From Cyclobacteriaceae bacterium (GTDB lineage: Bacteria; Bacteroidota; Bacteroidia; Cytophagales; Cyclobacteriaceae), in the NCBI GenBank assembly GCA_019638355.1, contig JAHBTY010000004.1:1-64000 (forward strand): a stretch of 64,000 nt of DNA, written 5' to 3'. Each line of letters opens with the position of its first letter. Position 1 is the first letter of the stretch. The position numbers and the translations under genes are program-made. Below, piece after piece: positions 44,867 to 46,022 of this stretch. A model generated the notes under the pieces. It ran no database searches. It was not told the DNA's origin and saw nothing but the letters and a program-made list of their open reading frames with translations.

Positions 44867-44894
44867 TTAAAAAAGCCACGCGGACTGCGTGGCT
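44867..44894 (-). terminator. Intrinsic terminator of the tRNA-like RNA
   Basis: Eight-bp perfect arms at 44874-44881 and 44887-44894 with a 5-nt loop. On the minus strand a U run follows immediately (44873 downward). It begins 5 nt after the CCA of the RNA at 44900. Confidence 0.85.
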
Positions 44895-44899
44895 TTACA

Positions 44900-45064
44900 T
44901 GGCTGTAGAGGGAGGGGTCGAACCTCCACGGAGAAGTTAGCTACAAGGCATAAGAAAACTCCCGATAGTTATCGGGATTAGTGGTCAACCCATTACCTTG
45001 CGTTTATCCTTTGCTCTCCACCCCCGAGACAGGAGGGCTTGTCTGCCAATTTCAACACCCTACA
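44900..45064 (-). tRNA. tRNA-Leu-like RNA with a greatly enlarged variable arm, possibly non-translational
   Basis: On the minus strand a class II tRNA cloverleaf can be drawn. Acceptor 5' strand TGTAGGG (45064-45058) pairs with CTCTACA (44910-44904) through all 7 positions (one G-U), then discriminator G and an encoded CCA. The D arm reads TTGAAATTGGCAGACAA, close to leucine tRNAs. The anticodon stem is CCCTC/GGGGG with loop CTGTCTC. The variable arm has stem GGAGA/TCTCC, and the T arm is GGAGG-TTCGACC-CCTCC. The variable-arm loop is about 80 nt (44935-45014) instead of 3-5 and contains a palindrome. The nominal anticodon GTC is wrong for a Leu-type body, position 37 is a pyrimidine and the discriminator is G, so a pseudogene or a tRNA-derived non-coding RNA is likelier than a working tRNA. 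No tmRNA tag frame is seen. Confidence 0.55.
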
Positions 45065-45374
45065 ATTTTTAAGAACAAATTTGGGTTAGTCTGCCTCCCG
45101 ATAGCTATCGGGATTCAACACCCCTACAATTTTTAAGAACAAATTTGGGTTAGTCTGCCTCCCGATAGCTATCGGGATTCAACACCCTACAATTTTTAAG
45201 AACAATTCTGGTTAGTCTGCCTCCCGATAGCTATCGGGATTCAACACCCTACAATTTTTAAGAACAATTCTGGTTAGTCTGCCTCCCGATAGCTATCGGG
45301 ATTCAACACCCTACAATTTTTAAGAACAAATTTGGGTTAGTCTGCCTCCCGATAGCTATCGGGATTCAACACCC
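45061..45374 (-). repeat. Five tandem ~63-bp repeats carrying a tRNA 5' end, a palindrome and a boxA-like motif
   Basis: Units begin at 45061, 45125, 45188, 45250 and 45312 (lengths 64, 63, 62, 62 and 63); a partial unit continues from 45375. Read on the minus strand, each has the tRNA-like 5' start TGTAGGGTGTTGAA, an 18-bp perfect palindrome (first at 45096-45113, CCCGATAGCTATCGGG core), GGCAGACTAACCC, then a boxA-like TGTTCTTAAAAAT. Units 3 and 4 share an AATTCTGG variant where 1, 2 and 5 have AAATTTGGG. There are no spacers, so this is not CRISPR. Confidence 0.9.
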
Positions 45375-45378
45375 TACA

Positions 45379-45391
45379 ATTTTAAAGAACA
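45379..45391 (-). promoter_or_regulatory. boxA-like element in the RNA leader
   Basis: The minus strand reads TGTTCTTTAAAAT, close to the boxA antitermination consensus (YGCTCTTTAACA) known from rRNA leaders. Slightly changed copies precede each tRNA-like 5' end in the array. NusB binding is inference. Confidence 0.35.
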
Positions 45392-45450
45392 GTTGGCTTT
45401 AGGCCTGACTAAACCACATTAGTGATGCATGTGATTTATAAATTATGATG

Positions 45451-45477
45451 CAAAGTAAGGTATAAAATGAAAATCAA
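45451..45477 (-). promoter_or_regulatory. Promoter of the tRNA-like RNA
   Basis: The minus strand has TTG (complement of 45475-45477) and, 16 nt on, TTACTTTG (complement of 45451-45458), a near match to the Bacteroidota -33/-7 pair. Transcription would start near 45444 and run through the array to the terminator at 44867, about 580 nt. Confidence 0.45.
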
Positions 45478-45557
45478 GTCAACAAAATAGTAAAATTTTT
45501 ATACAGTATTTAACAAATAGTAATATCTATTGATAAATTTACAAAAACATAACCCTA

Positions 45558-46022
45558 ATGAGCCGTCATTTTGAATTTGATAACACCGATCTAAAAATTT
45601 TGGAAATCCTGATGCAGGATGCGAAACGGCCTTATACTGAAGTTGCCAAGCGTGTAAATGTATCGCAAGGCACCGTGCATGTGCGCATGAATAAAATGGA
45701 AGACGCTGGCGTTCTGGAAAAGACCACGCTTAAAATCAACTATGCCAAATTGGGTTACGACATCACCGCTTTTATTGGTATATATCTGGAAAAGAGTGCT
45801 TTATATGAAATGGTGTTAGCCAAACTTAAAAGCATACCAGAGATTACCAACATCCACTACACCACCGGCAATTATAGCATGTTTGTCAAAATCCACTGTC
45901 GTGATACCAACCATCTGAAAGAAGTGTTGCACGATAAAATGCAACAGGTTGAGGGCATTGAGCGCACCGAAACCATGATCTCGCTTGAAGAAAGCCTGGA
46001 CAGAAACCTGAAACTAACCTGA
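45558..46022 (+). CDS. Lrp/AsnC-family transcriptional regulator
   Basis: 154 residues, full length. The N-terminal HTH is DLKILEILMQDAKRPYTEVAKRVNVSQGTVHVRM (residues ~9-42) and the C-terminal RAM domain (about 65-145) binds a small ligand, often an amino acid. The family controls amino-acid metabolism genes. Its start is divergent from the tRNA-like RNA across about 110 nt, so that RNA is a candidate target. The suf operon starts 92 nt downstream. Confidence 0.88.
   Translation: MSRHFEFDNTDLKILEILMQDAKRPYTEVAKRVNVSQGTVHVRMNKMEDAGVLEKTTLKINYAKLGYDITAFIGIYLEKSALYEMVLAKLKSIPEITNIHYTTGNYSMFVKIHCRDTNHLKEVLHDKMQQVEGIERTETMISLEESLDRNLKLT

Follow-up and report, generated by a model that had tools for sequence, protein, structure and literature searches.

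A conserved tRNA-like RNA of Bacteroidota with aspartate identity elements, proposed as a carrier for asparagine synthesis

The RNA and its locus

The 64,000-nucleotide stretch of DNA analysed here (the window; positions 1 to 64,000 of contig JAHBTY010000004.1, assembly GCA_019638355.1, from a Cyclobacteriaceae bacterium) encodes on its minus strand, at 45064-44900, a class II tRNA-like RNA, next to a divergent gene for an AsnC-type regulator. A first-pass annotation of the window had placed a class II cloverleaf at this site, which we confirm, and had taken it for a leucine-type tRNA that was either repurposed into a non-coding RNA or decaying. The element is genuine and not a pseudogene, and we propose that it serves asparagine synthesis. 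The features of the locus are listed below.

44900..45064, minus strand: tRNA-like RNA, 165 nt including the encoded CCA; 157.2 bits with model R1 and 116.8 bits with model R2, supported by covariation
45058..45064, minus strand: 5′ strand of the acceptor stem, UGUAGGG (TGTAGGG in DNA); U1-A72 and G2-C71 invariant in 124 members
45039..45055, minus strand: Leu-like D arm with AAATTGGCAGA loop; pairs 10-25 and 11-24 covary
45021..45037, minus strand: anticodon arm CCCTC-CTGTCTC-GGGGG, with C32, U33, G34, U35, C36, U37 and C38
44930..45019, minus strand: enlarged variable arm, 90 nt, with a 4-bp base stem, internal loop, inner hairpin and module
45003-45009 and 44936-44940, minus strand: the two sides of the variable-arm internal loop, GGATAAA and CTAAC
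44978-44991, minus strand: GGGTTGACCACTAA module within the variable arm
44961..44976, no strand assigned: palindrome CCCGATAGTTATCGGG, an insertion within the variable arm; not present there in 51 of 55 aligned sequences
44911..44927, minus strand: T arm GGAGG-TTCGACC-CCTCC
44900..44910, minus strand: 3′ strand of the acceptor stem, CTCTACA, discriminator G73 (44903) and encoded CCA
44869..44896, minus strand: terminator-like hairpin followed by a T-run; many relatives have a similar hairpin downstream
45051..45391, minus strand: about 5.4 tandem 62-bp units, each the 5′ end of the RNA (TTGTAGGGTGTTGAA) with a palindrome in the D loop
45450..45482, minus strand: Bacteroidota-type promoter-like site (TTGAC ... 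TTACTTTGC), recognised by its sequence
45558..46022, plus strand: AsnC-type transcriptional regulator, 154 aa, divergent; PDB and NCBIfam matches

The fold comprises an acceptor stem of 7 bp, a D stem of 3 bp, anticodon and T stems of 5 bp each, and a variable-arm stem of 4 bp. The variable arm had been described as carrying a loop insert of about 80 nt; the enlargement is real, but what we find is a structured arm of 90 nt and not a loop. Across members the internal loop of this arm reads GGANAAA / CUAAC, resembling a UAA/GAN motif, and it is accompanied by a hairpin of very variable length that contains TTGACCA in 46 of the 124 members. The CCCGATAACTATCGGG hairpin of the window copy is a local insertion, since a CCCGAT hairpin (of the CCCGAT...ATCGGG type) stands at this place in just four of 55 sequences, the window included. 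The encoded CCA is likewise atypical (present in 11/124).

A Bacteroidota-type promoter had also been noted upstream. A promoter-like site is indeed present, recognised by the promoter consensus of this phylum, and lies about 390 nt from the 5′ end of the mature RNA, beyond five partial copies of that end. The 62-bp array thus sits between the promoter-like site and the RNA, in the presumed leader, and its units are truncated 5′ ends with the CCCGATAGCTATCGGG palindrome in the D loop; degenerate units of this type occur also in near relatives such as G009 (locus L008). By eye, TTTG boxes are seen 5′ of many relatives. A GTTCTTT motif lies shortly 5′ of many members (e.g. L016, L031, L075, L289 and L293) and is perhaps a boxA-like leader signal.

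Conservation, covariation and distribution

When the genome of the window and 95 relatives were searched at the DNA level, 71 of the 96 gave matches at E <= 0.01, although in a few (e.g. G010 and G030) the match is confined to a palindrome of about 20 bp. A Cyclobacteriaceae metagenome-assembled genome is closely related to that of the window, and G009 is 98% identical to the window over the element. The core common to the relatives runs from U1 through G73-C74. In an alignment of 44 sequences 95.8% of the cells are paired, compared with 52-60% for slid partners, and double-sided changes occur in 19 of 31 pairs. The corresponding values for 124 distinct members are 97.2%, 53-59% and 21 of 27 pairs. 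These members were collected with a model and not by their anticodon pattern, and they remain from 134 rows once a pair of ordinary tRNAs, a match truncated at the end of its contig, and then duplicates had been removed; keeping the three rows gives 97.2% and 23 of 27 pairs, two of which are owed to them, and the members-only count is the one used here. A check suggested by the first-pass annotation, covariation in relatives, came out positive: the helices covary. Support is lowest for the inner hairpin of the variable arm, whose three modelled pairs form in 95.8, 54.5 and 87.4% of cells. Folding energy is no marker of the RNA (single-sequence z = -0.68, not significant).

A covariance model built from the 44 sequences tells members from ordinary tRNAs. 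The later model R2, applied to 25 sources, gives members at least 82 bits (72 for one 79-nt form) and ordinary tRNAs at most 64. Alignment A2 came from a pattern fixed at the anticodon loop and was left out of the loop counts; one member set consists of 100 loci chosen for family spread, among them five of the 30 loci L007-L036. Two roles for parts of the RNA were considered and dropped: an anti-Shine-Dalgarno function of CCUCC in the anticodon stem, because the stem varies with compensation (CCGCC in L055), and self-pairing of the GGUUGACC loop, because variants break the pairing.

Some members depart from the common form. Seven of the 134 rows (L039, L040, L041, L042, L043, L075 and L259, from families f11, f16 and f20) have a bulge of one or two bases in the T stem, which would further disturb binding of EF-Tu. 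Tandem copies occur in some genomes, with six in G090 (L037, 331-1438), and four loci (L017, L019, L029 and L034) have a shorter upstream copy with the loop CGATCTC beside the normal CTGTCTC copy.

A decaying tRNA-Leu pseudogene with a retained terminator would account for the lack of an ARAGORN call and for the five partial copies upstream, but it is refuted by conservation and covariation across at least 27 Bacteroidota families, the span of the loci examined, and we give it practically no weight. The other earlier reading, that of a tRNA turned non-coding RNA, is borne out by this depth of conservation and covariation, by the element's own promoter-like site and terminator-like hairpin, and by the loss of decoding positions while others stay fixed. 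Known RNA classes do not account for it either. A transfer-messenger RNA (tmRNA) has a tag reading frame and no anticodon arm; here the anticodon arm is conserved, and ARAGORN, which makes no call for the element, finds no tmRNA in the window. Rfam 15 yields no match in the window at gathering scores, and a permissive search gives sub-threshold matches only; tmRNA, riboswitches and other known RNAs were therefore rejected. No description of this RNA was found in the literature, which was searched by titles and abstract starts outside subscription papers, and the portion of PMC8007984 available to us does not contain it. So far as this literature goes, the RNA class is apparently new, with a function that we predict below.

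Members were found with R1 in 69 of 395 genomes of the class (E <= 1e-17). In a draw of 395 genomes from the phylum, members outside the class occurred in three genomes of one family, f67; the tally of 353 in this draw at E <= 0.001 is made up mostly of matches that score under 64 bits and have the size of an ordinary tRNA. Both searches used stricter filters that may lose weak members. Named carriers among the matches listed by a pattern scan are Cyclobacterium, Algoriphagus, Echinicola, Dyadobacter, Spirosoma, Runella, Pontibacter, Flammeovirga and Portibacter, besides many Cyclobacteriaceae and Saprospiraceae. No match was found in 72,556 plasmid records.

The RNA is also carried by viruses, namely on three IMG/VR contigs of 61-170 kb and in one 636-kb phage record. 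In all four (L057, L058, L059 and L209) it sits among tRNA genes and keeps U1-A72 and G73. The IMG/VR contigs were found by the loop pattern, so their CTGTCTC loop is fixed by construction and is an independent finding only for the 636-kb phage. The stretch fetched for L057 also has one tmRNA and 19 tRNAs.

Identity elements and genomic associations

The strong determinants of aspartate identity in bacteria are G73, G34, U35, C36 and C38, with G10 also listed, while tRNA-Leu requires A73 (PMC9976931). In our RNA these aspartyl-tRNA synthetase (AspRS) determinants are kept: G73 in 124/124 members, U35 and C36 in 123/123 each, C38 in 122/124 and G34 in 113/123. The acceptor end is invariant, with U1-A72, G2-C71 and C74 in 124/124 each. 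The positions that matter for decoding are relaxed, U33 being present in 94 of 123 members and position 37 being a purine in five of 124. The GUU anticodon of tRNA-Asn is absent, position 36 being C in 123/123. In the window genome, the anticodon loop of the tRNA-Asp (CTGTCAC) differs from that of the element (CTGTCTC) at position 37 only, and the first pair of this tRNA is G1-C72, while tRNA-Asn and tRNA-Gln have U1-A72. This last pair is recognised by bacterial GatCAB in tRNA-Asn (PMC4206432). The element thus combines what read as the charging signals of tRNA-Asp with the amidation signal of tRNA-Asn and tRNA-Gln, while decoding requirements appear relaxed. The GTC anticodon, G73 and the pyrimidine at position 37 had struck the first-pass annotation as out of place in a leucine body; all are present, but they are conserved features and not marks of decay, and the first two are elements of aspartate identity.

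Compared with tRNA-Asp(GUC), the element shares G73, G2-C71, GUC and C38, and differs by U1-A72 in place of G1-C72, by the long variable arm, by the Leu-like D arm and by the pyrimidine at 37. With tRNA-Leu it has in common the class II body, the D loop and the spacing of the variable arm, but it differs in G73, in the anticodon and in the lack of constraint on U33 and on a purine at 37. It is also far longer, at 110-198 nt apart from one 79-nt form among the 124 members, where tRNA-Leu has a short variable arm and 83-89 nt, and the window genome's own tRNA-Leu 83-87 nt. Allo-tRNAs are charged with serine. They and selC-type tRNA-Cys resemble the element in being non-canonical, with long variable arms and in some cases GUC anticodons, but the acceptor/T stems of both, and of the tRNA-Sec type, are 8/4 or 9/3 rather than 7/5 as here (PMC7609411). 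Serine identity depends on G73, G2-C71, R4-Y69, a large variable arm, C72 and C11-G24 (PMC9976931). Members have G73, G2-C71 (124/124), R4-Y69 (118/124) and the large arm, but C72 in 0/124 and C11-G24 in 22/124, and SerRS identity, which thus fits in part, was set aside because it would leave the fixed U35, C36 and C38 unexplained.

Could the RNA nevertheless be a working elongator that reads aspartate codons, possibly inserting asparagine? The anticodon, GUC or AUC in 119 of 123 members, and the viral copies among tRNA genes would suit such a role. However, U33 is lost in 29 of 123 members, 119 of 124 have a pyrimidine at position 37, the T stem is bulged in 7 of 134 rows and a normal tRNA-Asp exists, which makes an elongator highly improbable.

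The first genomic association is with the amidotransferase. In the 395 genomes of the class, GatB (TIGR00133, E <= 1e-20) was found in 306 and GlnS (TIGR00440, E <= 1e-40) in 137, and all 69 carriers of the RNA have GatB. Among the 137 GlnS-positive genomes, the RNA is present in 42 of 59 with a GatB match (one carrier, G612, with a partial GlnS match) and in none of the 78 without. With weak GatB matches excluded these numbers become 42/51 and 0/86, and with family f85 excluded as well 42/43 and 0/94. The 17 genomes with GatB and GlnS but no RNA are eight of family f85 with a divergent GatB of about 1e-105 (G495, G534, G565, G593, G619, G645, G668 and G691), eight whose GatB matches are weak (1e-21 to 1e-24), and G813. 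When 40 RNA-negative genomes, G813 and the eight of f85 among them, were searched with greater sensitivity, the best match reached 63.8 bits and had ordinary tRNA size. In the GlnS-positive genomes of families f23, f24 and f75, GatB and the RNA are missing together in some members and present in others. Family f88 is less clean: four of its GlnS-positive genomes have no RNA and no or a weak GatB, while among its GlnS-negative genomes G646 has GatB and the RNA, and G567 and G669 have GatB without it.

AsnS was found in 40/40 genomes tested (in five as matches in pieces), and 17 of the 25 carriers among them also have GlnS; in these 17, GatCAB is therefore needed for neither Asn-tRNA nor Gln-tRNA. 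One residue of the RDHG motif is important for discrimination by AspRS, and RDHG is the signature in PDB chains labelled Asp/Asn ligase. Comparing this signature in the AspRS of 15 genomes (nine carriers and four GatB-negative genomes), we found RDKG, RDLG or similar, and RDHG in 0/15. The AspRS of GatB-negative genomes must discriminate, and that of carriers looks alike; if it is discriminating too, the Asp-loaded substrate of GatCAB must be other than tRNA-Asn, and the element fits this part. The AspRS of the window genome (L304, 1-1924, minus strand) has 641 residues up to the edge of the sequence fetched for L304 and seemingly extra segments relative to the 584-600-residue frames of several relatives.

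Amidation that depends on tRNA is known from decoding tRNAs. Among the closest known systems is the indirect asparagine pathway of Deinococcus, Thermus and Bdellovibrio. As proposed here, it puts aspartate on an RNA with U1-A72 for amidation by GatCAB, and genomes that keep GatCAB despite AsnRS and GlnRS have already been noted (PMC4206432). In that pathway, however, a non-discriminating AspRS charges the decoding tRNA-Asn, as in Bdellovibrio (PMC4206432), while here a separate, non-decoding RNA with an aspartate anticodon loop would be used by an AspRS without the RDHG signature.

The RNA might instead be a regulatory decoy or sensor, which would bind AspRS or GatCAB to tune charging but would not itself carry biosynthesis; the same fixed identity positions would serve such binding too. 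To our knowledge, no identity elements or GatCAB link have been described for tRNA-Other of Bacillus cereus. This RNA lends the idea some support, as a tRNA-like pseudo-tRNA outside translation whose deletion has phenotypes, and differs from ours in flanking one genomic island (PMC3399842). It is not obvious why a decoy should need C74 and the intact acceptor end (124/124) or U1-A72, and the idea leaves unexplained why genomes with GlnRS retain GatCAB mostly when they also have the RNA; we regard it as quite unlikely.

The second association is with the AsnC-type gene. Among 98 loci, five of which have too little upstream sequence, a divergent frame homologous to the window's AsnC-type protein lies upstream of the RNA in 67 of 93, at a distance of 46-473 bp and mostly 70-240 bp. 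By genome, the neighbour is present in 65 of 83 bacteria from 23 families, including f67 outside the class, and within the fetched flank it is found beside none of 30 ordinary tRNA loci from RNA-negative genomes (29 tRNA-Leu and one tRNA-Tyr; L320 with just 78 bp upstream). In a partly overlapping set of loci whose neighbouring genes were clustered, the AsnC-type gene is present at 68 of 122 loci; second comes a cluster at 20 loci, which is SufB judging by its likeness to the gene in the window. The best PDB match of the window protein is E. coli AsnC (2cg4; 4.2e-36, 127 bits), with Lrp (2gqq) at 41 bits, and it scores 170.5 bits with the NCBIfam AsnC model, under the cut-off of 227. With a profile of 38 neighbours, E. 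coli AsnC again ranks first in the PDB (177 bits, against 113 for the second chain and 68 for Lrp); each of the 38 proteins matches the NCBI AsnC model and also, at best more weakly, the Lrp model. In E. coli asnC and asnA are arranged divergently. AsnC activates asnA there, asparagine damping the activation (PMC8707732), so that in both cases an AsnC-type gene adjoins one that makes asparagine or is proposed to, with the difference that the controlled gene here would be an RNA and not asparagine synthetase A. By eye and with a simple inverted-repeat scan, no shared AsnC-binding site or palindrome was evident in 51 of the 67 upstream stretches. In the three asnA-bearing genomes no AsnC gene lies within about 3 kb of asnA. 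The first-pass annotation, partly supported overall, included neither this neighbour nor the U1-A72 pair and the link to AspRS and GatCAB.

The neighbour also bears on a further alternative, in which the RNA is aspartylated and amidated but donates its asparagine or aspartate, through an aminoacyl-transferase, to a peptide, lipid or wall polymer. Staphylococcal tRNA-Gly provides a precedent for non-translational tRNAs as aminoacyl donors, and the identity and GatB evidence fits a donor equally well. The widely recurrent neighbour (68/122 loci) is, however, an AsnC-type gene, which points to free asparagine; the other neighbour clusters were judged from sequence starts and not by a transferase scan. 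We therefore hold a donor role to be unlikely.

A proposed role in asparagine synthesis

We hypothesize that AspRS and GatCAB use the element as a dedicated, non-decoding RNA for making asparagine outside translation, and that AsnC controls it; on the sequence evidence we consider this probable. First, the ordinary cellular AspRS would aspartylate the RNA, recognising G73, G2-C71 and an anticodon loop that resembles that of tRNA-Asp, with GUC and C38. Second, U1-A72, which the genome's tRNA-Asp lacks, would mark the aspartyl-RNA for GatCAB and its conversion to asparaginyl-RNA. Third, the altered loop (U33 not kept, pyrimidine at 37) and the large variable arm would bar decoding, so that asparagine would be freed for AsnRS and metabolism instead of being misread at aspartate codons. 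Fourth, as synteny and homology suggest, the divergent AsnC-type regulator would control the RNA promoter by asparagine, in the manner of E. coli AsnC and asnA. Charging and amidation are suggested by the invariant determinants and the co-occurrence with GatB, and the fate of the asparagine by the AsnC-type gene and the lost decoding features. The structured variable arm may recruit GatCAB or aid release of asparagine.

Several observations weigh against this proposal. The G1-C72 pair, which like G2-C71 is strictly conserved in bacterial tRNA-Asp (PMC9976931), occurs in 0/124 members; G10, a listed aspartate element, is present in 17/124; and G34 is replaced in 10 of 123 members (A in six, U in two, C in two). 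Some SerRS determinants (G73, G2-C71 and the long arm) are present as well. Members were gathered by a model that was itself derived from members, a procedure favouring conserved columns. The genome association counts are raw and not corrected for shared descent, and G813 and the eight f85 genomes combine GatB and GlnS without the RNA. Of 247 genomes with GatB but no GlnS, 27 have the RNA and 220 do not; in these 27 carriers GatB is uninformative because GatCAB is needed there for Gln-tRNA. In 18 of 83 genomes no AsnC-type gene was found next to the RNA (in G809, one of these, the gene lies between two copies of the RNA), and in G621, counted as positive, it is a 42.7-bit fragment.

Asparagine synthetases add to these points. 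AsnB-family matches occur in 74 of 80 genomes and in 41 of 45 carriers tested, so that asparagine need not depend on the RNA in carriers; being found nearly everywhere, they also make the absence of a synthetase no discriminating marker. The window genome has four such matches, of which three were viewed; two lie among glycosyltransferase genes, and the third, beside an asparaginase gene and outside such a cluster, may be a true asparagine synthetase. The asnA gene was found in 3 of 40 genomes. Four carriers (G243, G410, G485 and G621) have neither an AsnB-family match nor asnA, and the RNA route may be their sole route to asparagine. Elsewhere, it may be a second, regulated route, by analogy with E. 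coli, which has asnA as well as asnB.

We lean, with modest confidence, towards the wider view that asparagine synthesis in many Bacteroidota uses a dedicated RNA cofactor, which does not decode, is regulated by AsnC, is encoded where E. coli has an asparagine synthetase gene, and serves as a metabolic RNA that phages carry too. The RNA would offer a clean test of what AspRS and GatCAB require of their RNA substrate. The sequences already add a large, unannotated class of RNA and show that phages carry it among their tRNA genes. If the proposal is true, a tRNA would have become a metabolic cofactor that shares its charging enzymes with translation and takes no part in decoding, which would answer why many Bacteroidota retain GatCAB despite having both AsnRS and GlnRS.

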